Assembly (NCBI GenBank): GCA_031178645.1
Contig: JAPSIP010000006.1
Span: 1-15,758, forward strand
DNA: 15,758 bases
Source: Paracoccus sp. (in: a-proteobacteria)
Lineage (GTDB): Bacteria; Pseudomonadota; Alphaproteobacteria; Rhodobacterales; Rhodobacteraceae
Reading direction: 5' to 3'
Part shown: positions 488-15,495 of the stretch, in pieces
Layout: every line of letters starts with the position of its first letter
How positions within the stretch are numbered: position 1 is the first letter of the stretch
Notes under the pieces: generated by a model
Databases searched by the model: none
Seen by the model: only the letters and a program-made list of their open reading frames with translations
Told to the model about the DNA's origin: nothing
Position numbers and translations under genes: made by a program

Positions 488-1306
488 ATGACACCGACCG
501 TCTTGACCATCGCAGGGTCCGACAGCGGCGGGGGCGCAGGCGTCCAGGCGGATCTGAAGACCGTCTCGGCGCTTGGCTGCTATGGCGCCAGCGTCATCAC
601 GGCGGTGACGGCGCAGAACACCCGTGCGGTGACGGCCGTCCACCCGCTGCCGCCCGACCTGATCGCCGCGCAGATCCGGGCCGTGCTGGACGACATCGCG
701 GTTCATGCCATCAAGATCGGCATGGTCGGATCGCCCGAGGCGACGCGCGCCGTGGCGGATACCCTGCGCGGCTGTGGCATTCCCATCGTGCTGGACCCGG
801 TGATGGTCGCCAAGTCGGGCGACGTGCTGGCGGGCGAGGCATCCATCGCCGCCCTTCTCCGCGACCTTCTGCCTCTGGCCCATGTCCTGACCCCCAACCT
901 GCCCGAGGCCGCGCGGCTGCTGGGCGACCAGCCCGCCGGAACCGAGGCCGCGGCCCTGTTACAGGGCATGACGCTGCGCGCGCTTGGACCGCGGCACGTG
1001 CTGATGAAGGGCGGGCACGCAGGCGGTCCCCATTGCACCGATCTTCTTGTCAGCCCCGGCGGATCCGCCCGCTTCACCGCGCCCCGGATCCGCACGCGGA
1101 ACACGCATGGGACGGGCTGCACGCTGTCATCGGCCATCGCGGCGGGGCTGGCTGAGGGAATGCCCGTGGCCGAGGCCGTGGGCCGGGCGCATGGCTGGCT
1201 GCATGGCGCGATCCGGGCGGCGGACGATCTGGCGATCGGCGGGGGCAACGGGCCGGTGCATCATTTCCACGCCCTCTGGCCCCGCCACGCAGGGGCCGCC
1301 GCATGA
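488..1306 (+). CDS. thiD: hydroxymethylpyrimidine/phosphomethylpyrimidine kinase
   Basis: A 272-residue ribokinase-fold enzyme that phosphorylates HMP to HMP-P and then HMP-PP, the pyrimidine half of thiamine, in the cytoplasm. The N-terminal signature TIAGSDSGGGAGVQADLKT is present at residues 7-25. VLDPVMVAKSG is at 101-111 and VLMKGGH at 171-177. The phosphate-binding anion hole GTGC, with the family's catalytic cysteine, is at 208-211 (HGTGCTLSSAIAAGLA). The length is normal for a stand-alone ThiD without a fused ThiE. A strong G-rich Shine-Dalgarno (AAGGAAGG from 472) precedes the ATG. It is the first gene after the riboswitch, and its stop overlaps the thiO start by 4 nt. Because thiC is not here, ThiD may serve salvage as well as synthesis made from elsewhere in the genome. 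Confidence 0.96.
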   Translation: MTPTVLTIAGSDSGGGAGVQADLKTVSALGCYGASVITAVTAQNTRAVTAVHPLPPDLIAAQIRAVLDDIAVHAIKIGMVGSPEATRAVADTLRGCGIPIVLDPVMVAKSGDVLAGEASIAALLRDLLPLAHVLTPNLPEAARLLGDQPAGTEAAALLQGMTLRALGPRHVLMKGGHAGGPHCTDLLVSPGGSARFTAPRIRTRNTHGTGCTLSSAIAAGLAEGMPVAEAVGRAHGWLHGAIRAADDLAIGGGNGPVHHFHALWPRHAGAAA

Positions 1307-2250
1307 GCGTCACGGTCATCGGCGGCGGCGTGATGGGGCTTTGCATCGCCGCGGAACTGCAAGGGCGCGGCATCCCGGTGGCCGTGCGCGACGAAGGCCC
1401 CGGCCCCCAGGCCTGTTCCTGGTGGGCAGGCGGAATGCTGGCCCCCTGGTGCGAGGGCGAGAATGCCGAGGAAGCCGTCACCCGCCACGGCCTGACCGCC
1501 GCCAACTGGTGGCAGGCCCAGGGGGTTCCGGTGACGCGCAACGGCACGCTGGTCGTCAGCCTGTCGCGGGATGCAGGTGCGCTTGACCGCTTTGCCCGCC
1601 GCAGCCGGGGCCACCGGATGCTGGACGCCCCCAGCATCGCGGCGCTTGAACCGGACCTTGCGGGCCGCTTTTCCCGCGCGCTGTTCTTCGCGGACGAGGC
1701 GCATCTGTCCCCGCGCCAGGCCTTGTCGATCCTGTCGGAACGCCTGGCGCGGGTCGACAGCACGGAAGGCACCGTCATCGACTGCCGGGGCCTGTCGGCC
1801 CGCGACGCGCTGCGCGACCTGCGCGGCGTGCGCGGCGAAATGGTCGTGATCCGCTGCCCCGAGATCGTGCTGTCCCGCCCCATCCGCCTGCTGCATCCCC
1901 GGATGCCGCTTTACGTGGTGCCGCGCGGCGACGGCGTCTTCATGCTGGGCGCGACGATGCTGGAAAGCGACCGGCGCGGCCCGCCCACGGCGCGGGCGGT
2001 GCTGGAACTGCTGTCGGCGGCCTTCGCCCTGCACCCCGCCCTGGCCGAGGCCGAGGTGCTGGAACTGGGCGCCGATGCCCGCCCCGCCTTTCCCGACAAC
2101 CTGCCCCGCATCCGCCGCGCGGGGGGCGTCATCCACGCGAACGGCCTATACCGACACGGCTTCCTGCTGGCCCCTGCGGTGGCCCGCATGGTGGCCGATC
2201 ACCTTCAACACCAGACCAGACCGGAGTTCATGGATGCGGATCACGATTAA
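1303..2250 (+). CDS. thiO: glycine oxidase ThiO (FAD-dependent)
   Basis: A 315-residue D-amino-acid-oxidase-family flavoenzyme. It oxidises glycine with O2 to iminoglycine (dehydroglycine), the nitrogen and carbon donor for the thiazole ring in aerobes. The FAD-binding Rossmann motif is at the very N-terminus (VIGGGVMGLCIAAEL, residues 5-19). SWWAGGMLAPW follows near residue 40-50, a typical ThiO flavin-contact segment. The C-terminal GLYRHGFLLAPAVA (from residue 281) includes the substrate-carboxylate arginine region (about R284). The ATG overlaps the thiD stop as ATGA, and the gene overlaps thiS by 17 nt. ThiO in place of the radical-SAM ThiH implies oxygen-dependent thiazole synthesis. Confidence 0.94.
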   Translation: MSVTVIGGGVMGLCIAAELQGRGIPVAVRDEGPGPQACSWWAGGMLAPWCEGENAEEAVTRHGLTAANWWQAQGVPVTRNGTLVVSLSRDAGALDRFARRSRGHRMLDAPSIAALEPDLAGRFSRALFFADEAHLSPRQALSILSERLARVDSTEGTVIDCRGLSARDALRDLRGVRGEMVVIRCPEIVLSRPIRLLHPRMPLYVVPRGDGVFMLGATMLESDRRGPPTARAVLELLSAAFALHPALAEAEVLELGADARPAFPDNLPRIRRAGGVIHANGLYRHGFLLAPAVARMVADHLQHQTRPEFMDADHD

Positions 2251-2428
2251 CGGCACCCCGCAGGACAGCACCGCCGCCACCCTGGCCCAGGCCCTGGCCG
2301 AGGCCGGCCTGACCGGCCGCATCGCCACCGCGCTGAACGGCAGCTTCGTCCCCGCCACCCTGCGCGAGACGACGCCCATCCGCGACGGCGACGCGATCGA
2401 GGCGCTTGCGCCCATGCAGGGGGGCTGA
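2234..2428 (+). CDS. thiS: sulfur carrier protein ThiS
   Basis: A 64-residue ubiquitin-like protein starting [10 protein letters not shown] and ending QGG. Its C-terminal Gly-Gly is adenylated by ThiF and converted to a thiocarboxylate that gives sulfur to ThiG. The central ALNGSFVP and the [16 protein letters not shown] tail are standard ThiS signatures. An open frame continues upstream inside thiO, but the ATG at 2234 is chosen. It gives the normal ThiS length with the first beta-strand intact, and GGAG (2223-2226) lies seven bases before it. The start lies inside the end of thiO (17-nt overlap), and thiG begins two bases after the stop. Confidence 0.95.
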
Positions 2429-2430
2429 CG

Positions 2431-3192
2431 ATGCCCGTCTTCTACGGCACTACCATCGACAGCCCGCTGATGCTGGGCACGGCGGGCTATCCCTCGCCCA
2501 AGATCCTCGCCGACGCCTTTGCCCGGTCGGGCGCGGGCGTGGCCACCGTATCGCTGCGCCGGGAAAGCGGCGGCGGGCAGGATTTCTGGGCGCTGATCCA
2601 GTCGCTGGGCGTGGTCCTGCTGCCCAATACCGCAGGCTGCCACACCGCGCGCGAGGCCGTGACGACCGCCCAGATGGCGCGCGAAGTCTTCGGCACCGAC
2701 TGGATCAAGCTGGAAGTGATCGGCAACACCGACACGCTGCAACCCGATGTCTTCGGACTGGTCGAGGCCGCGCGGATCCTGTCCGCCGAGGGCTTCAAGG
2801 TCTTTCCCTATTGCACCGAGGATCTGGTGGTCTGCGAACGCCTGCTGGATGCAGGCTGCCAGGTGCTGATGCCCTGGGGCGCGCCCATCGGGTCCGGCCT
2901 GGGGCTGAACAACCCCCATGGGCTGCGGGCGCTGCGGGCGGCCTTTCCCGACGTGGCCCTGGTTGTCGATGCGGGCATCGGCCTGCCCAGCCACGCGGCG
3001 GCGGCGATGGAGATGGGCTTTGACGCGGTGCTGCTGAACAGCGCCGTGGCCCGCGCAGGCGATCCCGCCGCGATGGCGGGCGCCATGGCCGCCGCCATCC
3101 GCGCCGGGCGCGAGGCCTGTCTGGCCGACCCGATGGAGAGGACCGACATGGCCATCCCCTCGACCCCCGTGATCGGGCGGGCCTTCCTGTGA
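2431..3192 (+). CDS. thiG: thiazole synthase ThiG
   Basis: A 253-residue TIM-barrel enzyme that condenses deoxyxylulose 5-phosphate, dehydroglycine (from ThiO) and sulfur (from ThiS thiocarboxylate) into the thiazole phosphate. The N-terminal [10 protein letters not shown] (residues 13-22), [18 protein letters not shown] (65-77) and WIKLEVIGN (91-99) are present. K93 corresponds to the imine-forming lysine of the family. The phosphate-binding segments [11 protein letters not shown] and [12 protein letters not shown], and the late [13 protein letters not shown] motif, are also intact. The length is typical. The ATG follows the thiS stop by two bases, and the final codons overlap the GTG of thiE (GTGA). 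Confidence 0.97.
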
Positions 3193-3782
3193 CGCTGCCG
3201 CGCTTCTATCCCGTGCTGGACAGCGCCGACTGGATCGCCCGCGTCCTGCCGCTGGGCGTCAGGCTGGTGCAGCTTCGCGCCAAGGACCGACCCGAAGATG
3301 ACTTGCGCGACCAGATCGCGCGCGCCCGCGACCTGTGCCGCCAGCACGGCGCGATCCTGGTCGTCAACGACCACTGGCGGCTGGCGATCGATTTGGGCTG
3401 CGACTTCGTCCATCTGGGGCAAGAGGATCTGGACGGGGCCGACCTGCCCGCGATCCGCGCCGCCGGGTTGCGGTTGGGGATCTCTACCCATGACGAGGCC
3501 GAACTGGACCGTGCCCTGGGCTGCCGCCCCGATTACGTGGCGCTTGGGCCGGTCTGGCCGACGATCCTGAAGCAGATGAAATGGCACAGCCAGGGCGTCG
3601 AGAAGCTGACCCAGTGGAAGGCCCGGATCAGCGACCTGCCGCTTTGCGCCATCGGCGGGCTGACCCCCGACCGCGCGCGGCTGGCCATTGCGGCGGGCGC
3701 GGATGTGGTGGCCGCCGTGACCGACATCACGCTGAACGCCGACCCTGCGGCGCGGGTCCGCGAATGGCTGGACATCGCATGA
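3189..3782 (+). CDS. thiE: thiamine-phosphate synthase ThiE
   Basis: A 197-residue TIM-barrel enzyme that joins HMP-PP to thiazole phosphate, releasing pyrophosphate. The motifs are in order: QLRAKD (28-33), VNDHWRLA (59-66), HLGQEDL (75-81), GISTH (97-101), [10 protein letters not shown] (116-125) with a lysine at 128, then AIGGL (154-158) and AAVTDI near the C-terminus. The C-terminal VAAVTDI differs from the more common VVSAI, and the KQMKW segment replaces the KQ-pyrimidine-contact stretch seen in enterobacterial enzymes. These look like lineage variation rather than loss. The start is a GTG overlapping the thiG stop (GTGA), and the stop overlaps the thiF ATG, so the gene is translationally coupled on both sides. 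Confidence 0.93.
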
Positions 3783-4723
3783 GATATGCCCGCCAGACCG
3801 TCCTGCCGCAGATCGGGGACGCGGGCCAGTCCCGGCTTGCCGCAGCCCATGTGCTGGTGGTCGGCGCGGGCGCCCTGGGCATCCCGGTGCTGCAATACCT
3901 GACCGGCGCGGGCGTCGGCCGCATTACCCTTGTCGATCCCGACCGGGCCGAGCTGTCGAACCTGCATCGCCAGCCGATCTATGGCCGCCATATCGGCCAG
4001 CCCAAGGGGCTTGCCGCCGCCCTGGAAATGGCGGCGCTGAATCCCGACACCACCGTCGCCCCGCTTGTCGCGCGTCTGGATCCGGCCAATGCGCCGGATC
4101 TGGTGGCGCAGGCCGACGTAGTCATGGACTGCGCCGACAGCTTTGCCGCGACCTATGCGCTGTCGGATGCCTGCCTGGCGGCGAACCGCCCGCTGATCGC
4201 GGCCTCCGTCCTGCGGATCGAAGGCTTCGCGGGCGGCTTTTGCGGCACCGCGCCCTCGGTCCGGGCGGTGTTCCCGGATCTGCCGGCGCAGGCAGGGAAT
4301 TGCGCGACGGCGGGGGTGATGGGGCCGATGGCGGGGCTGATCGGCGCGCTTCAGGCGCAGATGGCCCTGGCGGTGCTGCTGGGGCTGCGCCCCTCGCCCC
4401 TGGGTCAGATGATCCGCTTTGACGGCTTGCGCCCGGCCAGCTTCCGCTTTGACGGCGCGCCGGAACCCGCCACCGGCCACCGCTTCATCGCCGCAAGCCA
4501 GATCGGCCCCGGCGACCTTGCCGTGGATCTGCGCGGCCCCGACGAGGCCCCGCAGCCCTTCGTGCCCCATGCCCTGCGCCAGCCTGACGCCCTGCGCCCC
4601 GCCGACGGCCAGCGGGTCGTCCTGGCCTGCCGGTCCGGCCTGCGCGCCTGGACCGCCGCCGACCGCCTGCGCCAGCATTGGCCGGGCGAGATTGTCCTGA
4701 TCGCCCTTGGAGACCCCGCATGA
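3779..4723 (+). CDS. thiF: ThiF/MoeB-type E1 adenylyltransferase with rhodanese-like tail
   Basis: A 314-residue protein (the ATG at 3779 overlaps the thiE stop as ATGA). Residues 1-225 are an E1-like domain that adenylates the ThiS C-terminus. It has [12 protein letters not shown] at the start, the nucleotide loop VLVVGAGALGIP (25-36), DPDRAELSNLHRQ (53-65), MDCADSF (116-122) and the catalytic-cysteine segment GNCATAGVMGP (C175). Residues about 243-314 form a short rhodanese-like domain with the persulfide loop CRSGLRA (C284), suited to delivering sulfur to the ThiS acyl-adenylate. Both zinc-binding CxxC pairs usual in ThiF/MoeB are missing: the first position reads PSVRAVFPD (S160, A163) and no CPxC follows. 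Operon position between thiE and thiY supports ThiF over MoeB. Confidence 0.9.
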   Translation: MRYARQTVLPQIGDAGQSRLAAAHVLVVGAGALGIPVLQYLTGAGVGRITLVDPDRAELSNLHRQPIYGRHIGQPKGLAAALEMAALNPDTTVAPLVARLDPANAPDLVAQADVVMDCADSFAATYALSDACLAANRPLIAASVLRIEGFAGGFCGTAPSVRAVFPDLPAQAGNCATAGVMGPMAGLIGALQAQMALAVLLGLRPSPLGQMIRFDGLRPASFRFDGAPEPATGHRFIAASQIGPGDLAVDLRGPDEAPQPFVPHALRQPDALRPADGQRVVLACRSGLRAWTAADRLRQHWPGEIVLIALGDPA

Positions 4724-5649
4724 AGCCCCTTGCCCTGACCCTTGCCCTGCTGGCCGCCAGCCCCGCCGCCGCCCAGGATCTGTCGCTGATGCTGGACTGG
4801 TTCGTGAACCCCGACCATGCGCCCATCATCGTGGCGCAGGAACTGGGCTTCTTCGCGGATGCCGGGCTGACGGTCGATATCGCCGCCCCCGCCGATCCGG
4901 CGGATCCGCCGCGGATGCTGGCCTCGGGGCAGGTGGATCTGGCAGTGGGATATCAGCCGCAACTGCATCTGCAGGTCCATGAAGGCCTGCCCTTGACCCG
5001 CGTCGCCACCCTTGTCGCCACGCCGCTGAACTGCCTGACGGTGATGGCGGACGGGCCGGTGCAGGGGGTGGCGGACCTGAAGGGGCGCAAGGTCGGCTAT
5101 TCCGTGCCCGGAATGGAAACCGCGCTGATGGGCGCGATGCTGGACCATGCGGGCCTGACGCTGGACGACGTGGAACTGGTCAATGTGGGCTGGTCGCTGT
5201 CGCCCGCGCTGATGTCCGGCCAGGTGGACGCGACCCTTGGCGGATTTCGCAATTTCGAGCTGACGCAGATGCGGCTGGAAGGGGCAAATGGCCGCTGCCT
5301 GTTTGTCGAGGAACAGGGCATCCCCGCCTATGACGAACTGATCCTGCTGGCCAATCCGCAGACGATGGACGCTGATGCCACCGCCCGCTTCGTGGCCGCG
5401 ATGGAACGGGGCGCGCATTACATCCTGAACCACCCCGACCGGGCCTGGCAGGTCTTTCGCGATGCCCATCCCGACCTGGACGACGAATTGAACCGCCAGG
5501 CCTGGGCCGACACGCTGCCGCGCTTTTCCCAAAGCCCCGGCGCGGTCGATCACGCCCGCTATGCCCGGTTCGAGGCCTTCCTGCGCGATGCGGGCCTGAT
5601 CGACAGCGTGCTGCCCGTCAGCGCCCTTGCGACGGATCCGGGCGCATGA
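4720..5649 (+). CDS. thiY: ABC transporter substrate-binding protein, NMT1/THI5-like (thiamine-precursor uptake)
   Basis: A 309-residue periplasmic protein. An open frame extends 14 codons upstream, but the ATG at 4720 is chosen. It is preceded by GGAG at 4709-4712, overlaps the thiF stop as ATGA, and starts a clean signal peptide (MKPLALTLALLAASPAAA, cleavage probably before Q19). The mature protein begins with LMLDWFVNPDHAPIIVAQELGFF (23-45), the hallmark start of the NMT1/THI5-like family that includes the formylaminopyrimidine-binding ThiY. ASGQVDLAVGYQP and LKGRKVGYSVPGME follow, as in the family. The ligand is inferred as an HMP-type pyrimidine (FAMP or HMP) from the thi operon context with tenA. 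Ligand identity cannot be read from the sequence. Confidence 0.85.
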   Translation: MKPLALTLALLAASPAAAQDLSLMLDWFVNPDHAPIIVAQELGFFADAGLTVDIAAPADPADPPRMLASGQVDLAVGYQPQLHLQVHEGLPLTRVATLVATPLNCLTVMADGPVQGVADLKGRKVGYSVPGMETALMGAMLDHAGLTLDDVELVNVGWSLSPALMSGQVDATLGGFRNFELTQMRLEGANGRCLFVEEQGIPAYDELILLANPQTMDADATARFVAAMERGAHYILNHPDRAWQVFRDAHPDLDDELNRQAWADTLPRFSQSPGAVDHARYARFEAFLRDAGLIDSVLPVSALATDPGA

Positions 5650-6308
5650 GCTATGGCACCTGCTTTCCCTGCTGGCGGGCGGGCGCGCCGGATTGGGACG
5701 CCTATGTCCGGGCGCCCTTCGTCACCGCCTTGGCCGATGGCAGCCTGCCGCGCGCGGCTTTCCTGGCCTATCTGGCGCAGGACTACCTGTTCCTGATCCA
5801 CTTTGCCCGCGCCTGGTCCCTGGCCGTGACCAAGGCCCGCACCCTGGCCGAGATGCGCGCCTGTTCCGCCACCGTCCATGCCCTGCTTGAGACCGAGATG
5901 CGGCTGCACCTGGACCTGTGCGGCCGCGCCGGGATCACCGAGGGCGCGCTTGCCGCCACCACCGAGGCGCCGCAGAACCTGGCCTATACGCGCTATGTGC
6001 TGGAGGCGGGCTATAGCGGCGATTTCCTGGACCTTCTGGCGGCGCTTGCCCCCTGCGTCCTGGGATACGGAGAGATCGGAGCCCGGCTGCTGGCCGAACC
6101 CCATGCGCCAGATTACGCGGACTGGATCGCCACCTATGGCGGGGCCGATTATCAGGCGCTGTGCCATGACACCGCCGCGCTGATCGACGGTGCGGTGGAA
6201 AGCCGGTTGGGGGCAGGGGCGCGGGATCTGCCCCGCTGGGCGCAGTTGCAGGACCGCTTTTCCACCGCCACACGGCTGGAAGCGCAGTTCTGGACGCTGG
6301 CCGGGTGA
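5646..6308 (+). CDS. tenA: TenA-family thiaminase II / aminopyrimidine aminohydrolase
   Basis: A 220-residue all-helical enzyme of the TENA/THI-4 family. Such enzymes hydrolyse aminomethyl-HMP from degraded thiamine to HMP (salvage) and can cleave thiamine. Family features visible are the N-terminal PFVTALADGSLPRAAFLAYLAQDYLFL with the substrate-contact D46 and Y47, LLETEMRLH (80-88), the catalytic-cysteine stretch LAPCVLGYGEIG (C137), and the C-terminal RLEAQFW with the acidic residue E212. The cysteine marks the TenA_C class. It lies between thiY and thiX with 4-nt overlaps on both sides, which argues that transported pyrimidine is its substrate. Confidence 0.92.
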   Translation: MSYGTCFPCWRAGAPDWDAYVRAPFVTALADGSLPRAAFLAYLAQDYLFLIHFARAWSLAVTKARTLAEMRACSATVHALLETEMRLHLDLCGRAGITEGALAATTEAPQNLAYTRYVLEAGYSGDFLDLLAALAPCVLGYGEIGARLLAEPHAPDYADWIATYGGADYQALCHDTAALIDGAVESRLGAGARDLPRWAQLQDRFSTATRLEAQFWTLAG

Positions 6309-7030
6309 TCCGCCTTGCCCTGGCCTTCCTGCTGGCCTGGCAACTGGCGGTCTGGGCCTTCCAGATCCCGCGCTTCCTGCTGCCCGGACCGCTGGCCGTG
6401 GGCCGCGCCCTGCTGGATACGCCCGACCTGCTGGCCCGCGCCGCCCTGACCACCCTGGCCGAGATCGCGGCGGGCTTTGCCATCGGCGCGGGGCTGGGCG
6501 TGGTGCTGGCGCTTCTGATGGGGCTGCTGCCCGGTTTGCGCCGGGCGCTGTTGCCGGTGATGACCTTCAGCCAGACCGTGCCGATCTTCGCCTTTGCGCC
6601 GCTTCTGACGCTGTGGCTGGGATACGGCATCGCCCCCAAGATCGCCATCGTCGCGCTGATGGTGTTCTTTCCCGTGGCCTCAAGCTTTGGCGACGGGCTG
6701 GCGCGCACGCCCAAGGTGTTTCGCGAACTGGCCGACAGCATGGGCGCCACGCCGCTGGAGGCGATGCGGATCGTGCGCATCCCCGCAGCCCTGCCGGATC
6801 TGGCAAGCGGGCTGCGCATCGCCGCCGTCTATGCCCCGGCGGCGGCGATCGTGGGCGAATGGGTGGGCGGATCGCGCGGGCTGGGGGCGGTGATGATCCA
6901 GGCAAGCGGGCGCATGAAGATCGACCAGATGTTCGCGGCCCTTGCCGCGACCGTGCTGATCGCGGTGGCCTGCAAGGCCCTGGTATCCCGCCTGGCCCTG
7001 CGGCTGGAACGCCACGCGGCGGGAACCTGA
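6305..7030 (+). CDS. thiX: ABC transporter permease (NitT/TauT type), thiamine-precursor uptake
   Basis: A 241-residue inner-membrane permease of the BPD_transp_1 superfamily. An N-terminal hydrophobic segment (LALAFLLAWQLAVWAF) is followed by PRFLLPGPLAVGRALL. Several more membrane spans follow, for example in the AGFAIGAGLGVVLALLMGLL and APKIAIVALMVFFPVA regions. The EAA loop that contacts the ATPase is clear: ELADSMGATPLEAMRIVRIP followed by AALPDLASGLRIA. The start is GTG, overlapping the tenA stop as GTGA. It pairs with ThiY by operon position. No ATP-binding subunit gene follows: five bases after the stop lies the end of a convergent reductase gene. Confidence 0.88.
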   Translation: MIRLALAFLLAWQLAVWAFQIPRFLLPGPLAVGRALLDTPDLLARAALTTLAEIAAGFAIGAGLGVVLALLMGLLPGLRRALLPVMTFSQTVPIFAFAPLLTLWLGYGIAPKIAIVALMVFFPVASSFGDGLARTPKVFRELADSMGATPLEAMRIVRIPAALPDLASGLRIAAVYAPAAAIVGEWVGGSRGLGAVMIQASGRMKIDQMFAALAATVLIAVACKALVSRLALRLERHAAGT

Positions 7031-7035
7031 CTGCC

Positions 7036-7995
7036 CTAGCAATAGCGTTCCACGAAGGACATCTGGTGATCGCCATAGCGGTCGCCCTGGGCAAAGCCTG
7101 CGGGCAGGATCCGCTCGATCAGGGCAATGTCGTCCTTGTCCAGCGTCACGCCCTGCCAGTCGCGCAGATGATCCGCCGTCCGCGTGCCGGGGATCGGGAT
7201 GATGTGGTTCCCTTGCGCGAGCACCCAGGCAAGCGCCGCGCCCGGCACCGTCCAGCCCCGCGCGGCGCAAAGGTCGCGAAAGGGCCGGATGGCGGCAAGA
7301 TTGGCGGAAAAGTTCGGCTCGACGAAGCGCGGGTTGGTGTCGCGGAAATCGATGCCCGCGCGGAAGTCGCGCGCCAGCGGTTCGCGCCCGAACATCCCGC
7401 GGCCCAGGGGCGAGAAGGCCACGAAGGCCACGCCCAGGTCCTTGCAGGCCTGGATCAGGCCCAGTTGCGGCAGGCGGGTCCACAGCGAGAACTCGTTCTG
7501 GATGGCCGTTACCGGATGTTCGGCATGGGCGCGGCGCAGGGTGGCGGGGGCGACCTCGGACAGGCCGTATCCGCCGATCTTTCCTTCCTCGACCAGCCTG
7601 CCCATCGTGCCGGCCAGATCCTCGACCGGGATGTCGGGCTGGCGGCGGTGGATATAGTAAAGGTCCACATGGTCGCGGTTCAGCCGCCGCAGCGAGGCTT
7701 CCAGGCTTTGGCGGATATAGGCCTCGTCATTGCGGACCGTGCGGGGCGGCCCGGTGACGATGCCGCATTTCGTGGCGACATGGATGTCGCGGCGCCCCCA
7801 TGCGCCGATCACCTGCTCGGACAGGCCGTTGCCATAGATGTCGGCGGTATCGATATGGCTGATGCCCCCGTCCGCTGCGGCGTCCAGACAGGCAAGCGAG
7901 GTCGCCTTGTCCGTCGGACCGAAGATGCCGCCAAAGCTCATCGCGCCAAGGCCGATGGCGCCGACCGTCCGTTTGCCAAGCCGCCGTTGTTCCAT
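7036..7995 (-). CDS. aldo/keto reductase
   Basis: A 319-residue NADPH-dependent (by family) aldo/keto reductase TIM barrel. The catalytic tetrad is visible: D49 and Y54 in HIDTADIYGNG, K76 in HVATKCG and H116 in LYYIHRRQ. The C-terminal cofactor signature IIPIPGTRTADHL is present. Sequence around the start (RRLGKRTVGAIGLGAMSFGG) matches the broad YajO/AKR13-like group with unknown natural substrate. AGGAGG (8001-8006) lies five bases before the ATG. It is transcribed in the same direction as the subtilase gene, whose stop is 79 bases upstream, and converges tail-to-tail with thiX (5-base gap, no terminator). A link to the neighbouring genes is not evident. Confidence 0.93.
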   Translation of the reverse strand: MEQRRLGKRTVGAIGLGAMSFGGIFGPTDKATSLACLDAAADGGISHIDTADIYGNGLSEQVIGAWGRRDIHVATKCGIVTGPPRTVRNDEAYIRQSLEASLRRLNRDHVDLYYIHRRQPDIPVEDLAGTMGRLVEEGKIGGYGLSEVAPATLRRAHAEHPVTAIQNEFSLWTRLPQLGLIQACKDLGVAFVAFSPLGRGMFGREPLARDFRAGIDFRDTNPRFVEPNFSANLAAIRPFRDLCAARGWTVPGAALAWVLAQGNHIIPIPGTRTADHLRDWQGVTLDKDDIALIERILPAGFAQGDRYGDHQMSFVERYC

Positions 7996-8074: not shown

Positions 8075-11000
8075 CTAGCCGCGCAGGCCCAACAAGTCAC
8101 GCAGTGTTTCCAGCATCCTCGGGTCGATCTGCGGGCCGGGGGGCAAGCCCTGGCTTCTTCGGTCGCCCCTGCAGAAACCGTCCAGGCAGCGTTTCATCAT
8201 GTCGAGGTCGATCCCCTGCCGGCGAAGGCGTTCGCGCAGGTCGGGGCTTAGGACGCGTTCGGACAGAAGGCATTCCAGCAGGTCGCATAGCCTGTCCTTC
8301 CCGCCGTTCCCGGTCGAGACCGGCGGCGGGCGGTCGCCGCCCATCCAGAGGGCGGCGGTGCGGACCGCCTCGCGCGTGAAGGGGCGGCCCCGCAGCGTCT
8401 TGCCGCGCGCCGCGATGCGCATCTCGTACAGGCCAGCAAGCGGGGCGGTGATCGTCCGTTCGAAGATTCCGGGTGCGACCTCGGCCAGATGCAGCGCGGT
8501 CTCGACCTGGCCGGGGTCGGTCAGGCGGGCGGTGACCTCGGCCCGGCTCTCGACCGGCAGGCCGTATTCCGTCAGGGCCACGCGCAGCGTCAGCGACGCT
8601 CCGGGGGCGAAGCCGGTCTGATGCAGCGCCGCCGTCATCCGCAGGTTGGACTGGCTGTGGACAAGCAGGCTGTAGGCTGCCCCATGTCGTGCCGCCGCGA
8701 CGGCCGCGGCGTTGCGTTCGGGGACATGGGTCAGAACCCCCGCCTGGCCCCGCTTGGACAGTTCCAGCCGCGCGGTCCAGCGGCCCTCGCGCGCGCCGGA
8801 TCCTACCGGCACGGGCAGGGTCAGCCGGTAATAGCTGACATTGCGCCCGTCAAAGTAAAGGCCTCCCGGCATCGACATCGCCGCGGCCGGGTCGATCACG
8901 TCGCCCGCCGGGGTGACCAGGGTCATGTCGATCACGCCCCGCATCGGGGTCATCAGAATAACGTCGGCGGCGATGTCGGTTTCTGCCAGGTCGAAGGCGA
9001 TCTCGTGGACCTGGCCCGGGGCAAGCAGGCCGTCGGGGTCGCGCACGATGTCCTGGTTCCGGATGCCTGCCAGGACCTGCAGGAAGTACTTGGCCAGCTT
9101 GTAACGGCTGTTGATGTCCAGTTCGCCCGTCAGCACGCAATAGCCGCCGGTGCCGTTGGTCAGCGCGGTGAGGGCGGCGGGCTGGATGTTCTCGGCCCTG
9201 CCCAGGGCCACGGCAAAGACGCGGTCGTTGATGCTGCCCGCGACGTCGCTGATGAACTTGGCGTCGGTTTCCATTCCGTCGGTGAAGACCACCACGGATT
9301 TCGTGCCGAAGCCCGCCACCGGCGCCAGATGCGCCTGCGCCCGTTCAAGGCCGTCGCCGATGGCAGTCAGGCCGTTGGGGTTGGGGGTAAAGGTGGTGAT
9401 GGCGCTGCGGATCTGGTCGCGCTGCACGTCGAAGACGGTGACTGGCCCCAGCGGCCCCACGGGCGGCACCAGCACGTCATGGGGGTCATGGTCGAAGGCC
9501 ACGATGCCCACCCCGTCGCCTTCGTGGACCACATCGATCATGATCTCGGCCGAGAAGCGCAGCACGTCGATCCGCTGAGCGGCGCCGATCCCGGCGGGGA
9601 ACAACATGCTGCCGGACCGATCAAGGCACAGCATCACGCAGGCTGACTGGCGGGCCACGGTGTTGGCGGTGATGGGGATCGTCCATTCCCGGTCGATCTG
9701 CGGGCAGCGGACCGTGACGCTGCCGGCATGGGTCGCGCCGACGGTCGTGGCCGTGTAGCCGATCCAGACGATGGCCTCGCGCAGGGTGCTTGAACTGGGG
9801 GTTCCGGGCGAAGTGACGGATGGTCCCAGCGGCGTTGTGAAGGGTGCGCCCGGACCGGCCGTCACCTGGAACTGGACCGGCCACAGGCTTTGCACGTCGA
9901 AGCGGACGGCGCGGACCGTCGTCTCGCCTTCGGGGACGTCGTTGAAGGTGACCGAGGGGGTCGCCAGCTCGATCCGCCAGCCGGCATCGCGGACCGCCGC
10001 CGCCGCGTCCAGCCGGCCAAAGCCGAAGAACTCGGAGAAGTTCGGACCAAGATAGCCCGGATCGGTCGAGATGCGGTTGTCCACGTCGCGCCAGCGTCCG
10101 ACGGCATTGGTGTTGTTGGGGTCGATCTTGACGGCAGTGGCCCGGCAGATGTCGCGGACCTGGTCCCAGCGAAGCTGCGGGTTAGCAGACAGCATCAACG
10201 CTCCGATGCCTGCGCTGACGGGCGTGGCATAGGAGGTGCCGCCGAAATCGGTGCGATAGCTGCGCGGCCCCGCGGCGACTGGCGCGCCGGCGGGCAGTGC
10301 ATCGCCCAGGCCCGCGTCCAGCGTGATCTGGTTCGCCCCCGCATTGACCGCCGTGATGCGCCGTCCCGAGGCCGCCCCGCCGCCCGGCGCCCCCGTCAGG
10401 ACCGCCTGTCCCACGGCGAAGCCCGCCGCATTCGCAAGTGTCAGAACCGTTGCCCCCGCGGCCGCTGCGGCGGCAAGGGTGGACCGCTGCGCCGGATGCC
10501 CGCAGATCGCGTCTCCGTTCGGCTGGGCCAGGATCGTCGCCGCATGGGCACCGAACATTCCCGGCGGGTTGTGCCGCCCTTCATTGTCATTGCTGGGCGC
10601 GCACCAGTCCACGGTCGAGCCGAAGTTGCTGTAGGCGGCCTGGATCTCGGTCGTGCCGTCATTGCCCAGCGTCGAGGCCGCGACCCCGAAGCAACGGTCA
10701 TACATGCTCCACGGACGGCGGAAGGTCGTGTCCAGATCGACATTGTCATTCCCGGCCGAGAAATAGAGCAGCACGCCCCTGCCGCCCCGCCCGTCATCGG
10801 TCAGGCGGTCGAAGGTATCGCTCATCAGGCCCGAGATGGGGTTGTTCACGCTGACGCCGAAGCTGTTGGTGATGACATCGGCCCCGCGCGCAAGCTGGGC
10901 CGGGAACCCGTCGGTGGTGCTTCCGGCGTCAAAGCCCGCCGCCCAAAGATACATCTCTGCAAAGCGGGCTTCGTTGCCGCCGTGGCGGATGGCGATCAGC

Positions 11001-12190
11001 CGGCAGTTTCCGGCGACCCCCGCGACCCCTTCGTTCACGCCCCCCACCACCGAGGCATTGTTGGCAGTGGCGACGGCAGCGCTTGCGCAGCAGGTGCCGT
11101 GGTCGCGGACCGGATCGGCGGGATTGACGCTGAGGTTCGACATGTTGTCCACCATCGCCCCGAAGTCGAAGACCGCGACCTGCTTGGCTGCGCCTGACGA
11201 AACGGTTCCCGACAGGTCGGGGTGGTTCAGGTCCACGCCGTTATCCACCACCGCCACCACGACATCGGCATGGCCGAAGGTGCGGGCGGGATCCATGTCG
11301 CGCAGCGCCTGCCATGCATCCGGCGTGGCGATCAGCCGGTGGTCCCATTGTTCGGGGAAAAGGAAATCAGCGGGGAAGATCGCGTCCTCTTCGCTGGTCG
11401 AGACCAGGTCGGGTTCGGCATAGACGACCGCCTCCTCCTCGGCCAAGGCGTTGGCTGCGTCCAGCACCGCATAGCTGGCCGGGCCCGGAAAGCGCAGGCG
11501 ATAGACATTGCCCAGGGCGTTGAAGCGTCCTTCGGGCGACAGGCCATGACGTTGCGCGATCCGGGCAACCTCGGCTTCATCGACGTTCTCGTGGAAACGC
11601 GCGACGATCAGCGTCGTCAGGAACGAGGCATGGTCATCCGACAACTGCACGACCGCGCCCGCCGCCTCGATCGCCGGGTCATCATGCAGTTCGTCCAGCA
11701 GGGTTCCGGTCGCGTCCAGGCCTTCGTCGTCAAGCTGGATGATCGCGATGCCGCTGCGCCTGAAATTACCGTCGGACCTGATGGCGCGGCCGCCGATCCG
11801 GCCCGCTATCGTGGCCACGTCATCCTCGGCCGCCTTGCGCCTGCCCCGGCGAGGGCGTGGATCCCCGGCCGGTTGCCTCAGGATGCCGAGAAGCCCGGGA
11901 TGCGGTTCGAACGGAACCCTTACCTTGCCGCGATAGAAGAAGGGCATCCCGGGCCGCCCCAGGACGAAATCCTGGACCCGCGCCATGTCCCGCCGGTCGA
12001 GAAGACGGGTCTGCGGCTCCTGCCCCCGCGCCTCGACCATGACCACGGCTTGGCCTCCCTGCGGCGCGGCCAGTTCCGCCATTCCGCGAGGGCCGCTGAA
12101 GGTCGAGGCCTCATGCATCGTGATGGTGGCGCCGTCGACCGGGCGCCCCTGGTAATCCGTTATCCGAAATCGGATGATCTGCTTGTCCAT
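8075..12190 (-). CDS. large multidomain subtilase (S8 peptidase) with von Willebrand A domain
   Basis: A 1371-residue protein. Residues 1-80 resemble a carboxypeptidase-regulatory/transthyretin-like beta domain (ITDYQGRPVDGATITM). Residues about 145-262 resemble the fervidolysin-type pro-domain (VARFHENVDEAEVARIA...VVYAEPDLV). The S8 domain follows: D316 in VVDNGVDLNHPDL, H364 in RDHGTCCAS, oxyanion N481 in FSAGNDN and catalytic S653 in GGTSYATP. A roughly 70-residue beta-rich insert (about 570-641) splits N481 from S653. Residues about 848-1045 are a VWA domain with a complete MIDAS: DRSGS (D857, S859, S861), T942 and D971. Beta-sandwich-like sequence then runs to a helical tail with several cysteines (1300-1371). 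No signal peptide is visible, so cytoplasmic location or non-classical export is possible. The ribosome-binding site (GGGGA) is weak. It lies downstream of the dioxygenase gene and upstream of the reductase. Substrate unknown; processing or scaffolding of the neighbouring modified protein is speculation. Confidence 0.9.
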   Translation of the reverse strand: MDKQIIRFRITDYQGRPVDGATITMHEASTFSGPRGMAELAAPQGGQAVVMVEARGQEPQTRLLDRRDMARVQDFVLGRPGMPFFYRGKVRVPFEPHPGLLGILRQPAGDPRPRRGRRKAAEDDVATIAGRIGGRAIRSDGNFRRSGIAIIQLDDEGLDATGTLLDELHDDPAIEAAGAVVQLSDDHASFLTTLIVARFHENVDEAEVARIAQRHGLSPEGRFNALGNVYRLRFPGPASYAVLDAANALAEEEAVVYAEPDLVSTSEEDAIFPADFLFPEQWDHRLIATPDAWQALRDMDPARTFGHADVVVAVVDNGVDLNHPDLSGTVSSGAAKQVAVFDFGAMVDNMSNLSVNPADPVRDHGTCCASAAVATANNASVVGGVNEGVAGVAGNCRLIAIRHGGNEARFAEMYLWAAGFDAGSTTDGFPAQLARGADVITNSFGVSVNNPISGLMSDTFDRLTDDGRGGRGVLLYFSAGNDNVDLDTTFRRPWSMYDRCFGVAASTLGNDGTTEIQAAYSNFGSTVDWCAPSNDNEGRHNPPGMFGAHAATILAQPNGDAICGHPAQRSTLAAAAAAGATVLTLANAAGFAVGQAVLTGAPGGGAASGRRITAVNAGANQITLDAGLGDALPAGAPVAAGPRSYRTDFGGTSYATPVSAGIGALMLSANPQLRWDQVRDICRATAVKIDPNNTNAVGRWRDVDNRISTDPGYLGPNFSEFFGFGRLDAAAAVRDAGWRIELATPSVTFNDVPEGETTVRAVRFDVQSLWPVQFQVTAGPGAPFTTPLGPSVTSPGTPSSSTLREAIVWIGYTATTVGATHAGSVTVRCPQIDREWTIPITANTVARQSACVMLCLDRSGSMLFPAGIGAAQRIDVLRFSAEIMIDVVHEGDGVGIVAFDHDPHDVLVPPVGPLGPVTVFDVQRDQIRSAITTFTPNPNGLTAIGDGLERAQAHLAPVAGFGTKSVVVFTDGMETDAKFISDVAGSINDRVFAVALGRAENIQPAALTALTNGTGGYCVLTGELDINSRYKLAKYFLQVLAGIRNQDIVRDPDGLLAPGQVHEIAFDLAETDIAADVILMTPMRGVIDMTLVTPAGDVIDPAAAMSMPGGLYFDGRNVSYYRLTLPVPVGSGAREGRWTARLELSKRGQAGVLTHVPERNAAAVAAARHGAAYSLLVHSQSNLRMTAALHQTGFAPGASLTLRVALTEYGLPVESRAEVTARLTDPGQVETALHLAEVAPGIFERTITAPLAGLYEMRIAARGKTLRGRPFTREAVRTAALWMGGDRPPPVSTGNGGKDRLCDLLECLLSERVLSPDLRERLRRQGIDLDMMKRCLDGFCRGDRRSQGLPPGPQIDPRMLETLRDLLGLRG

Positions 12191-12354: not shown

Positions 12355-13878
12355 TCAGAGCGGGATCGGATGGTTGCCGCCGGGGATCCGAAAGCGCGAG
12401 AACGTGGCCGAGATGCTGACATCCAGGCTTTTGACCCCATGCCACCAGCCTGCGGGCAGGAATAGCAGATCCCCTGGCGCCACAACAAGTTCGGTGACCG
12501 AGGCGCGCGCGAACAGCGGAAAGCGCGACAGATCGGGCTTATCCGGGTCCACGGCACTGTAGAACCTGCGCCTGACATACAGCTTGGGGCCGTCAAAGGG
12601 CGGGATCAGCAGAAAGCGTTTGCGCCCGTGGATCTGCCCGAACAGGATCGAATGCAGGTCGAAATGCAGCGGCGTGATGGTGCCGCGCGGCCCGATCCAC
12701 AGCTTGACTGCTCCATCCGCCCCGCTTGACGCGTCCACGATGTCGGGGGGCGCCCCCAGTTCCTGCCGCAATGGATCGAAGGCCGGATTGCGAAAGAAGT
12801 TGTTGCGGGCGACCATGTAGAAGTCGTTACCGTCCGGTCCGTCGCGCAGGCGCCGGGCAAGCTGGTCCAGCGTTGTGGTTGTCGTGGTCTGGCGGAAGTT
12901 CGTCTCGTAATCGGGATCGGCTTCGCGGCCCGATGTCACCTCGATCCGCTCGCGGCCAAAGCGGCGGGCCAGGCTGTCCGGGGTCCATGTCCGCACCGCA
13001 GGCGCATCCCGCAGCGCGCCCCGGATCACGACGGGCAGGTTGCGGTAATAATGACGCGCGAAGAAGTCAGGGGCCGCCATTGCCTCGACCTGGTCGATCG
13101 AGGTTGCCTTTCCGCCATCGCGCCAAAGCGCGCTGTAATGATCCAGCAGGCCGCGGGCGAGGTCGGGATCCAGTCCATCGGCCTCAGCCTGGTCGCCCCG
13201 CGCCGGGGCGGGCGGCGCAGGATCTGGGCGATGGGCCGACATGGGCGCTTGCCGCGACCGGGAGGGCAGGGGCCCCAGCACCTTCTGGTCGAAGTAGGAT
13301 CGGCGGGAGACTGCGGGTCGGTGATGGACCCAGCCGTTCAGGGTGAAGCGGCCATCCCGGAAGCGGTTGCCGGGGCAGACCACCGGAAGAACCTCGTGCC
13401 GGGTTCCGGCGGCGAAAAAGACCATGCTGTCGTTCCTAGGCTCGATCACCACCCGTTCGCCCCCAGGGGGATGGATCACCAGTTCGCCCCCCGAAAACCC
13501 CTTGGGCAGCGCGTGGAGGTAATAGACGAAGGTCAGCGCCCGGGTCCGCGTCTGGGGCGAGCCGTTGTCGGTGTGCCAGTGGTAATACTGACCGTCACCA
13601 TGCGCGGTCATCTGCAACTCGATCCAGCTGTCCTGCATGGGACCGATCCCCAGGGGACCGAGCACCTGGGGCGCAAGGGCGCGGACCGCGGCCTCGATCC
13701 GGGCGCTGACGGGGCCAAGCTGGTCCGCGAAGATCACCACCGACCGCCGCCAGTCGGCAAATCGCGGATCATCGCCGATCGTCTTCGAGGGCGAGAATAC
13801 GCTTTCCCTGGACAGCGCGAAGTCCAGCAACTGGGCGTTCACCTGGGGGCCGAACAGATCGGAGTAAAGCCTGTACAT
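12355..13878 (-). CDS. bifunctional dioxygenase: prolyl-hydroxylase-like 2OG-Fe(II) domain fused to JmjC/cupin_8 domain
   Basis: A 507-residue protein; the ATG at 13878 is chosen although the frame stays open upstream, because the upstream part lies inside the repeat-protein gene and reads as Arg-rich nonsense. Residues 1-205 form a P4H-superfamily dioxygenase with iron ligands H102 and D104 (YYHWHTDNGS) and H161 (GTRHEVLPV), and probable 2-oxoglutarate arginine R177 in GRFTLNGWVH. A Pro/Ala-rich linker spans about 205-235. Residues about 240-507 form a JmjC/cupin_8 domain: LPVVIRGAL, iron ligands H405 and D407 (LHFDLHS), K420 (HGRKRFLLIPP) and H480 (AGWWHGV). Both active sites look complete, so two separate hydroxylations are expected. 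No signal peptide. It starts 26 bases after the Pro-rich repeat gene. By family, targets would be peptide or protein side chains; the actual target is unknown. Confidence 0.9.
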   Translation of the reverse strand: MYRLYSDLFGPQVNAQLLDFALSRESVFSPSKTIGDDPRFADWRRSVVIFADQLGPVSARIEAAVRALAPQVLGPLGIGPMQDSWIELQMTAHGDGQYYHWHTDNGSPQTRTRALTFVYYLHALPKGFSGGELVIHPPGGERVVIEPRNDSMVFFAAGTRHEVLPVVCPGNRFRDGRFTLNGWVHHRPAVSRRSYFDQKVLGPLPSRSRQAPMSAHRPDPAPPAPARGDQAEADGLDPDLARGLLDHYSALWRDGGKATSIDQVEAMAAPDFFARHYYRNLPVVIRGALRDAPAVRTWTPDSLARRFGRERIEVTSGREADPDYETNFRQTTTTTTLDQLARRLRDGPDGNDFYMVARNNFFRNPAFDPLRQELGAPPDIVDASSGADGAVKLWIGPRGTITPLHFDLHSILFGQIHGRKRFLLIPPFDGPKLYVRRRFYSAVDPDKPDLSRFPLFARASVTELVVAPGDLLFLPAGWWHGVKSLDVSISATFSRFRIPGGNHPIPL

Positions 13879-13904
13879 CGCCTTGCCGCCTTGTGGCCTT
13901 TCCT

Positions 13905-14549
13905 TCAGTCCATGCCGGATCGTTGCGAAAGTTCCTGGATCCTGCGGTCGATATGAAGGTCCACCACGTCCAGCAGGGCTGGCGTCCTGATCGACAGGAA
14001 CCAATACAGGATCCAGGGATTCTCGGCGATCTCGCCGAAGCCGCCCGCAGGCCCCGCGGGCGGTGTCCCCGGTTCGGGCGGCCCGCCGTCCGGGGGGTTG
14101 AAGATCGCCGGTCCCGCAGGTCCTGCCGGCGGCACGCCCGGTTCGGGGGTTCCGCCGTCGGGCGGGGCAAAGATCGCCGGACCCACCGGGGGCACGCCGG
14201 GTTCGGGCGGGCCGCCATCGGGGGGTTCGGCGGCCCCTGGGCGACCTTGCCCGATAATCTCTTGCAGCTCGGCCATACGCTCGGCCAGGCGGGCTTCGGC
14301 GATGGCCTCGATCAGCCTTGCGGCAGGCTCGCGTCGGGGACGCGCGGCGCTGTCCCGGGCGAAGACCCAATGCGCCACAAGCGAATCCATCCAGGCCACG
14401 CCGAAGGGGCCGACATCGGGCGGGGGCTGGACGGATGCTGCGTCGCGATCCAGTGCGACGATCTCGTCGATCAGGTCGGGATTGCGCAGGATGTCCAGGT
14501 TGTCGCCGTGCTTCAGCCGCAGCCGTTCCAGCAATGCCTTGCGGGACAT
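13905..14549 (-). CDS. Pro/Gly-rich repeat protein, candidate substrate of the adjacent modifying enzymes
   Basis: A 214-residue protein not matching any family I recognise. The ATG at 14549 is preferred over one 11 codons upstream because AGGAGG sits five bases before it, and it follows the glycosyltransferase stop by one base. Residues 1-100 are charged and mostly helical (LLERLRLKHGDNLDILRNPD; then ARLIEAIAEARLAERMAELQEIIG). Residues 109-172 hold three imperfect repeats of 20-23 residues beginning PPDGG(P/T)PEPG(V/T)PP. The C-terminal 42 residues (ENPWILYWFLSIRTPALLDVVDLHID...) form a conserved-looking hydrophobic-to-charged segment. No signal peptide. The repeats are rich in P-P, E-P-G and G-P motifs of the kind prolyl hydroxylases act on. 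Sitting between a hydroxyproline-type GlcNAc-transferase and a P4H-like enzyme makes it the likely target, by inference only. Confidence 0.85.
   Translation of the reverse strand: MSRKALLERLRLKHGDNLDILRNPDLIDEIVALDRDAASVQPPPDVGPFGVAWMDSLVAHWVFARDSAARPRREPAARLIEAIAEARLAERMAELQEIIGQGRPGAAEPPDGGPPEPGVPPVGPAIFAPPDGGTPEPGVPPAGPAGPAIFNPPDGGPPEPGTPPAGPAGGFGEIAENPWILYWFLSIRTPALLDVVDLHIDRRIQELSQRSGMD
14034..14225 (-). repeat. three tandem Pro/Gly-rich coding repeats
   Basis: Three in-frame units of about 60-69 bases encode residues 109-128, 129-151 and 152-172 of the repeat protein. Each opens with PPDGG, continues PEPG and PP, and ends in GPA with AIF (units 1 and 2) or GGFG (unit 3). Unit 2 carries an extra GPA triplet of residues. 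The units differ at many third positions, so the repetition is maintained at the protein level rather than being a recent duplication. Confidence 0.85.
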
Positions 14550-14550
14550 G

Positions 14551-15495
14551 TCAGCCTCCTCCTGTGGGAAGAACAAGGTCATGTTCTGCAGGCGCAGCCA
14601 CTGGCTGGATCAGCCGCAGCCCCGCCCTTCGTTCGAAATCCGCAACCGACCGCGCCGTGCCGGTGCCAAAACGGGCGCCGCGCAACTCGCCGCGATAAAG
14701 CCGCCGCAGCTGGTCGCAGGATGCCCGGTTCAGGCGGGGCCAGTCCGGGTGATCCTGCCAGTGGGGCACCCGGGACGCGCGATCATAAAGGTGCCAGCCC
14801 AGCACGAGATGGGGGTGGAACAGGTCATAGCCATGCGTGAAGGCGCGCAGGCCCACCGAAACCTCGTCGGCAAAGAAATACACTGCCGGGTCGGCTTCGA
14901 CATCCCTGATGAAGCTGGCATCCGCGAAAAGGAAATGCAGCGATGCGAAGCTGGCCGGGAAGGGGCCTTGTGCTTCGGTGCGGGAAACGGGGTGGCCGAC
15001 CAGGCGGAACAGCAGGCCGTCCACGCGTTCGGCCTCGGCCATGCGATAGATCGCGCGGATGCGGCCTACGGGATCGGTCTGTGGGATATAGGGTGGCAGA
15101 TAGCCGGTCAGGACGGGCCTGGCAAAACCCGCGCTGCGCAGGTCCTCAAGGATACCGATCGCCATTTCGTCCCATCCAGGAACGAAGCGGTGATGGGAAT
15201 CCAACATCAGCGTATAGGGCTCGTCCCCCGCGCGCGCCTGAAGCAGCGACCGCGCCCAGTTGCACCCAAGGCTGCGGCTGGCAGGGATCTTGATGATCTC
15301 GACATGGGGCAGCCGCCGCAGGGCGGTTTCCCCGCCCTCGTCGCCGGGACCGTATTGCCAGGCCACGCCAATCCTAAGCCGGCCGGGCGAGGCAGCGGTG
15401 CGGAGCAGGTCCTCCAGCGTGAACAGCAGTTCCTTGTCCCGGTAGGCCGGGATCTGGACGTAGATCCGTTGATCCGCACGGGAAAGCACGGACAA
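14551..15495 (-). CDS. GlcNAc-transferase family protein (PF11397-like, Skp1 Gnt1-related)
   Basis: A 314-residue GT-A-type glycosyltransferase. Family marks in order are IYVQIPAYRDKEL (11-23) with LEDLLRTA, the RIGVAWQYGPGDEG segment (41-54), ARSLLQARAGDEPYTLMLD followed by SHHRFVPGWDEM (DSH at 99-101 in place of DxD), FADEVSVGLRAFTHGYDLF (208-226) with HPH, and LGWHLYDRA. The DSH-x-RF and acidic-E-R-T-GYD-P pattern is that of the GlcNAc family that includes the Dictyostelium enzyme adding GlcNAc to hydroxyproline of Skp1. The start is a TTG at 15495 after AAGGGGA; a GTG two codons in is the alternative. No signal peptide or membrane segment, so it should act in the cytoplasm. Donor sugar and acceptor are inferred. 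It is the first gene of the unit, one base from the repeat-protein start. Confidence 0.85.
   Translation of the reverse strand: MSVLSRADQRIYVQIPAYRDKELLFTLEDLLRTAASPGRLRIGVAWQYGPGDEGGETALRRLPHVEIIKIPASRSLGCNWARSLLQARAGDEPYTLMLDSHHRFVPGWDEMAIGILEDLRSAGFARPVLTGYLPPYIPQTDPVGRIRAIYRMAEAERVDGLLFRLVGHPVSRTEAQGPFPASFASLHFLFADASFIRDVEADPAVYFFADEVSVGLRAFTHGYDLFHPHLVLGWHLYDRASRVPHWQDHPDWPRLNRASCDQLRRLYRGELRGARFGTGTARSVADFERRAGLRLIQPVAAPAEHDLVLPTGGG

Follow-up and report, generated by a model that had tools for sequence, protein, structure and literature searches.

A candidate prolyl-hydroxylation and hydroxyproline-glycosylation cassette with its own repeat protein in Paracoccus

Introduction

Among described systems, the one most like the three-gene cassette reported here is the Skp1 pathway of Dictyostelium and Toxoplasma, in which a PHD-type prolyl hydroxylase (PhyA) and a transferase of the GT60/PF11397 family (Gnt1) act on a target proline in a flexible segment. 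The cassette lies at positions 12,355 to 15,495 of a 15,758-nucleotide stretch of Paracoccus sp. DNA (contig JAPSIP010000006.1, assembly GCA_031178645.1; the whole stretch is called the window below) and encodes a glycosyltransferase, a proline-rich repeat protein and a dioxygenase. To our knowledge, hydroxyproline glycosylation is known from eukaryotes only. Another GT60 enzyme, from Trypanosoma cruzi, acts on threonine of mucins and is not known to have a hydroxylase partner. One report places Toxoplasma Gnt1 in GT60, describes its activity as dependent on PhyA, and assigns the T. cruzi enzyme, a polypeptide alpha-N-acetylglucosamine (GlcNAc) transferase, to the same CAZy family (PMC6939170). 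A second report describes JcdI, a JmjC dioxygenase of Dictyostelium, as binding Skp1 (PMC9485057), a loose parallel to the JmjC domain of the cassette. In bacteria, the Pseudomonas hydroxylase PPHD acts on EF-Tu, and the accessible text describes no sugar step for it (PMC7864055); unlike the cassette's enzyme, its solved chain of about 229 residues is too short to hold a JmjC domain as well.

The Paracoccus cassette shares with the Skp1 pathway the pairing of hydroxylase and transferase types and a flexible proline-bearing segment. It differs in being bacterial, in having its hydroxylase fused to a JmjC domain and no further sugar-adding enzymes among its three genes, and in encoding its own proposed substrate, which is repetitive and without a match to Skp1; no Skp1 model matched any of the five window proteins scanned. 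Because this substrate is not Skp1, we file the cassette outside the pathway: as proposed below, it works like the pathway and is not a member of it. The cassette was absent from the literature found, in a search that reached few subscription papers.

A three-gene cassette

The cassette and its parts are as follows.
14551..15495, minus strand: GT60-type glycosyltransferase (PF11397), 312-314 amino acids, start TTG 15495 or GTG 15489
13905..14549, minus strand: repeat protein, proposed substrate, 214 amino acids, start ATG 14549; helical N-domain, Pro/Gly repeat linker, C-terminal helix
14049..14228, minus strand: repeat region, three PDGGxPEPGxPPxGP units; motif cores 14197-14222, 14137-14162 and 14068-14093
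12355..13878, minus strand: fused two-domain 2-oxoglutarate (2OG)-Fe(II) dioxygenase, 507 amino acids, start ATG 13878 read from the sequence; PF13640 and PF13621
13294..13878, minus strand: N-terminal HIF-PHD-like prolyl-hydroxylase domain, residues 1-195; H102, D104, H161, R177
12355..13170, minus strand: C-terminal JmjC/cupin hydroxylase domain, residues 237-507; H405, D407, K420, H480

A preliminary description had named three leftward genes spaced 1 and 26 bases apart, encoding a PF11397-like glycosyltransferase, a protein with three Pro/Gly-rich repeats, and a dioxygenase that has two complete iron sites and consists of a prolyl-hydroxylase-like first domain and a JmjC half. The open reading frame coordinates reproduce the layout, with transferase, repeat protein and dioxygenase all on the minus strand, and every one of these assignments held on closer analysis. 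The transferase matches PF11397 in Pfam at E 5.7e-53 with 181.1 bits, far above the curated cut-off of 21, and residues D97-S98-H99, D208, E209 and H233 are invariant in 32/32 aligned sequences, taken from the 120 relatives listed with that of the window included. It is the single PF11397 gene found in the source genome, whose completeness is estimated at 71.5%.

Within the 507 residues of the dioxygenase, Pfam places a 2OG-FeII_Oxy_3 domain (PF13640, 3.5e-19) and a Cupin_8 domain (PF13621, 4e-44). Both iron triads, H102-x-D104...H161 and H405-x-D407...H480, are invariant in 29/29 aligned sequences (27 from the list of 79 fused proteins, among them that of the window, together with two from the Nitrospira and Nocardioides loci L004 and L005 described below), as are R177 and K420, which we take, by analogy, to be the 2OG ligands. 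The N-terminal domain has its nearest relatives, by sequence and by fold, in the HIF-type prolyl hydroxylases (Dictyostelium PhyA is one of the sequence matches), and it carries the HxD...H site and the Arg ligand. The C-terminal domain has a JmjC fold with the HxD...H site and the Lys ligand, and it is closest in sequence and fold to JMJD5 and JMJD7. As in JMJD5, JMJD7 and FIH, its iron and likely 2OG residues are intact; it differs from them in being fused to a prolyl-hydroxylase-like domain and in standing beside repeat units that nearly lack lysine, arginine, asparagine and glutamine. The pairing of PHD-like and FIH/JMJD5-like hydroxylases in one protein is of interest in itself, and it is kept in 79 of the best 120 of 157 dioxygenase homologues, with fused proteins also listed for metagenome-assembled genomes (MAGs) of Burkholderiales and Chitinophagaceae.

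The repeat protein

The protein encoded between the two enzymes belongs to a family for which 155 matches, the window's own included, were found at E 1e-3 or better by protein search. Among the best 120 of these, PEPG occurs in three copies in 54 proteins, two in 40, four in 21 and five in 3, with one copy in a single protein and none in another; homologue lists of this kind favour sequences that have exact words in common with the window's protein. With the P, D, G, E and G of each unit as anchors, three other places are taken by proline in 312, 311 and 309 of 313 units, and an aspartate stands four residues ahead of PEPG in 314/342. An alignment of 30 members, in which the sequence P0108 is truncated N-terminally, shows conserved segments on both sides of the repeats, SWMDSWVAHW toward the N-terminus and ENPWILYWF toward the C-terminus. 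None of the 30 members scanned at E 0.01 matched a Pfam family, the collagen repeat model included, which sets the protein apart from collagen-like proteins and makes the proposed substrate family a new one with respect to Pfam.

No solved relative of the repeat protein was found. AlphaFold2, run with 68 sequences, gave a mean predicted local distance difference test score (pLDDT) of 73.5 and a predicted template modelling score of 0.29; the model shows four helices in the N-terminal part, then the repeats, which lack secondary structure (block-mean pLDDT 54-68), and finally a single C-terminal helix. Foldseek returned a single, meaningless match to it (E 8.8).

Codon changes indicate how the repeats are maintained. 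Copies within five genes differ by 78 synonymous and 40 non-synonymous changes, a count that is biased since the pattern used to pick units fixes several residues, and the Nitrospira repeats of L004 alone gave 19 synonymous and 21 not, with one unit degenerate and conservation unclear. For these reasons whole genes were compared between the window and a second Paracoccus locus (L019). The repeat region is 83% identical in amino acids (39 synonymous and 10 non-synonymous codon differences), the C-domain 74% (16 and 12) and the N-domain 44% (19 and 57), against an expectation of 71 to 76% non-synonymous for random single changes; the comparison is of one genome pair in the window's genus with GC content uncorrected. 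Between these two loci the repeat linker is thus the best-conserved part of the protein, and we therefore reject the idea that it is only a low-complexity spacer. The motif is also private to the cassette in the five genomes scanned, incomplete MAGs among them: a degenerate DNA pattern for PD(G/A)GxPEPG had 14 matches, 14/14 inside the repeat-protein gene, and the reversed pattern had 0.

Conservation and distribution of the cassette

The order of transferase, repeat protein and dioxygenase recurs in 6/6 loci, the window counted, in four genera that we assign to three phyla, so that the three-gene arrangement, whose co-occurrence in other genomes had been left as a question, does extend beyond the window. 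A genome scan with the repeat-protein alignment yielded four loci from 68 pattern matches, all with the trio in this order: two nearly identical loci in Nitrospira MAGs (L003 and L004), one in Nocardioides astragali (L005) and one in an Intrasporangium MAG (L006). The trio was also seen by tblastn in L004, L005 and L006; the sequences of L003 and L006 break off within the dioxygenase gene. The remaining locus, L019, came from a survey of the genus with the dioxygenase (genome G1176, probably Paracoccus liaowanqingii; contig of 3,271,357 bases) and has the same order, with 67.6% identity to the window in the transferase, 61.4% in the repeat protein and 62.5% in the dioxygenase. A first genome scan with the transferase gave 228 stretches, 0 of them confirmed.

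In the Nitrospira loci an amine-oxidase-like gene sits between transferase and repeat protein. In L004 it spans 1988-3460 and is of the flavin type (PF01593, 5.6e-12); its product could alter the sugar.

Evidence from contigs points the same way. All three genes of Roseovarius sp. S1116L3 lie on a 78,752-base contig. Contig sizes were available for 118 listed repeat proteins, 42 of them on contigs of at least 5 kb, and 23/42 share an equal-sized contig with a listed fused dioxygenase or transferase, 12/42 with both (the window is in each count), where nine shifted-size controls gave 0 or 1 match. From the transferase side, 29 of 49 listed enzymes on contigs of at least 5 kb were matched to the contig of a listed repeat protein or fused dioxygenase, leaving 20 unmatched. 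Some of the 19 unmatched repeat proteins are misses among the matches listed, because N. astragali, itself unmatched, carries all three genes. The distances of the three genes correlate across 15 trios, 12 of them paired by equal-sized contigs (Mantel r 0.77 to 0.84, 0/5000 permutations), as would those of genes that travel together; this shows a shared history rather than a shared function, as plain common descent would give the same result. Together, the 6/6 loci, the equal-sized contigs and the correlated distances lead us to reject chance co-location.

The cassette is rare and patchy in its distribution. Profile searches with the repeat protein recovered nothing but the window in its order (1 of 390 sampled) and in its phylum (1 of 299). 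In the Nitrospira family they gave the two loci already found (2 of 175), and in the Nocardioides order N. astragali plus a doubtful case (2 of 293). A weak match in G1065 (E 6.8e-4) with one stop inside was set aside. With the dioxygenase, the genus yielded one new locus besides the window (2 of 125); the Nocardioides class yielded N. astragali (1 of 296), and the window's family the window (1 of 394). These samples overlap, and in some genomes part of the first-look candidates were left unscored. Searches of viral contigs, plasmids and phages returned nothing for the repeat protein, and a phage, plasmid or viral origin of the trio was set aside; the dioxygenase has one plasmid match, confined to the C-domain, and one phage match, covering 19% of the query. 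Among the PADLOC models of anti-phage defence systems, neither the transferase nor the repeat protein had a match, and the dioxygenase matched two generic CAS-associated 2OG models (1.2e-21 and 2.1e-4).

Proposed function and alternatives

The 155 matches, the 6/6 loci and the conservation of the repeats at the codon level mean that the company of transferase, hydroxylase and proposed substrate is more than chance. We lean, with confidence slightly better than even, toward a self-contained cassette for prolyl hydroxylation and hydroxyproline glycosylation that brings its own substrate and an extra JmjC hydroxylase and works like PhyA and Gnt1 on Skp1. In such a scheme, prolines within the unstructured repeats, with those of E-P-G and G-x-P-P as the best candidates, would be hydroxylated by the HIF-PHD-like domain with O2 and 2-oxoglutarate as cosubstrates, and the resulting hydroxyprolines would then receive a sugar, most probably alpha-GlcNAc, from the GT60-type transferase. 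A second hydroxylation of the repeat protein is probably the work of the JmjC domain. Perhaps its target is the aspartate of PDGG, a guess made because lysine, arginine, asparagine or glutamine occurs in only 6/307 units, although the target may also lie outside the repeats. The preliminary description had likewise proposed that the unit hydroxylates and then glycosylates prolines of its own repeat protein; the parts and arrangement behind that proposal are well supported as real, conserved and unusual, while the substrate, the residues, the sugar, the order of steps and any role in the response to oxygen are what we infer from them.

Several observations weigh against this proposal. The usual targets of JMJD5 and JMJD7 are, as just noted, nearly lacking in the units; the cassette is rare; the Nitrospira repeats are of unclear conservation; and sequence comparison found no solved structure close enough to the transferase to be of use (best E 0.18). 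The wider PF11397 family is a further difficulty. Distant members, 27.9 to 39.2% identical to the window's enzyme, were found in plasmid collections (8 records) and phage collections (3 records), neither of which gave a match to the repeat protein. Five of these 11 records were inspected (four plasmids and one phage, the plasmid gene tables being incomplete), and no annotated 2OG oxygenase or repeat protein lies within 4 kb of the PF11397 gene in 5/5. Three of the distant enzymes were scanned and score 232 to 271 bits, above the 181 of the window's enzyme. Because bacterial and phage members thus occur with no annotated hydroxylase nearby, the family name alone leaves the acceptor unsettled, and the case for the cassette therefore rests on the conserved partnership of the transferase with a prolyl-hydroxylase-like enzyme and a proline-rich protein. 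These findings led us to lower our confidence in hydroxyproline glycosylation slightly and to raise, also slightly, that in threonine as the acceptor.

That alternative, in which the transferase glycosylates threonine or serine in the repeat region and the dioxygenase independently hydroxylates proline or aspartate, both on the repeat protein and not in sequence, is in our view unlikely. It draws on the presence in GT60 of the T. cruzi enzyme (PMC6939170), on the phage and plasmid enzymes just described, and on the repeats themselves: threonine ranks second in frequency at two positions of the unit (77 and 103 of 313), and all 118 repeat regions hold at least one serine, threonine or tyrosine where 1.45 would be expected to lack them by chance, a further point against hydroxyproline as the acceptor. 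Yet 130/307 units have no serine or threonine at either variable position, the prolines are near-invariant, which threonine is not, and the transferase stands with a prolyl-hydroxylase-like gene in all 6 loci. Threonine as a required acceptor within units is unsupported, since 21/119 proteins lack serine and threonine at these two positions in every unit, no fewer than under shuffling (mean 15.9, range 7 to 26).

We also think it improbable that the enzymes modify another protein, such as an adjacent protease or large protein, with the repeat protein as a scaffold or adaptor that recruits it. The conserved N- and C-domains would suit an adaptor, and a large protease-like protein adjoins the cassette in 3/3 independent loci with enough flank; but the flanking proteins vary between loci while the trio is constant, and the linker, which of all parts of the protein has changed least between the window and L019, looks more like a target than a spacer. 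A pathway like that of ribosomally synthesized and post-translationally modified peptides, with modified units cut from the repeat protein by a neighbouring protease and released, is very doubtful: repeated core-like units, tailoring enzymes and a protease do meet at one locus, but inter-unit spacing varies and a conserved segment follows the repeats, unlike in the usual precursor.

If hydroxyproline glycosylation is indeed the function, a bacterial hydroxylase, transferase and substrate would form a small movable system coupling O2-dependent hydroxylation to glycosylation, and the cassette would bear on the origin of the Skp1 pathway. It is tempting to go further and see a mobile oxygen-dependent glyco-switch, in which the PHD and FIH-like fusion, together with the GT60 enzyme, tags a dedicated repeat protein with sugar in a manner that depends on O2 and 2OG; this we hold only tentatively and think rather less probable than not. 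One polypeptide would then unite both hydroxylase types (PHD and FIH-like) that separately regulate animal HIF, and the oxygen-sensing Skp1 pathway of protists could have its bacterial counterpart, or its forerunner, in this switch.

Neighbouring genes and related loci

Downstream of the dioxygenase, 164 bases away on the same strand, lies a possible accessory member:
8075..12190, minus strand: subtilase and VWA protein, 1371 amino acids; PF00082 5.5e-27, VWA_2 1.1e-9

A 73.8% identical gene occupies the same place and strand in L019, and the window protein has no match in L004, L005 or L006 at E 1e-3; a PADLOC subtilase model matches it weakly (0.0087). The types and strands of the protease-like neighbours differ between the three independent loci: that of L005 is a divergent subtilase (2.9e-18), and that of L004 is convergent, shows an HELGH motif by eye and has only a weak, sub-threshold match of M12 type. 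The L004 and L005 neighbours are related to each other over 544 amino acids (E 2e-17).

Other genes near the cassettes were noted in passing. An 866-residue protein of L019 (15322-17922) and an 846-residue protein of L005 (12349-14889) are 25% identical over 275 amino acids (E 2.8e-5), and neither has a Pfam match above cut-off. About 3 kb from the Nocardioides cassette, L005 15342-19468 encodes a Septu-like PtuA/PtuB pair (PtuB 1.2e-69, PtuA 4.5e-126), followed by a patatin-like gene read by eye. Transposase-like genes occur near the cassette at L019 13002-14027 and in L022 (HTH_33 and others, the rest by eye) and suggest a mobile neighbourhood.

Among the neighbours of the distant PF11397 enzymes are type VI secretion or phage-tail-like genes. 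On an Azospirillum plasmid (L043 3995-8882) the transferase stands beside a Pvc16_N gene (2e-25) and a tail-sheath gene, and on two Burkholderiales plasmids (L044 and L045) the transferases lie in type VI secretion clusters with a fimbrial protein. Two of the distant enzymes are longer, at 408 and 468 residues, and the window's transferase matches PHROG 24687 at 3.3e-71.

Beyond the subtilase gene, the window holds an adjoining aldo-keto reductase gene (7036-7995, PF00248). A very similar gene, by eye, lies at L021 3855-4814, about 20 kb from the L019 cassette, and the spacer between the two may have been inserted later. The plus strand at 488-7030 carries a thiamine run, in which hydroxymethylpyrimidine (HMP) kinase (TIGR00097), ThiE and TenA score above NCBIfam cut-offs, ThiO just below, and an SsuA-like binding protein and an ABC permease match below cut-off; the gene at 2431-3192 had no match at 1e-10 and was read by eye as ThiG.

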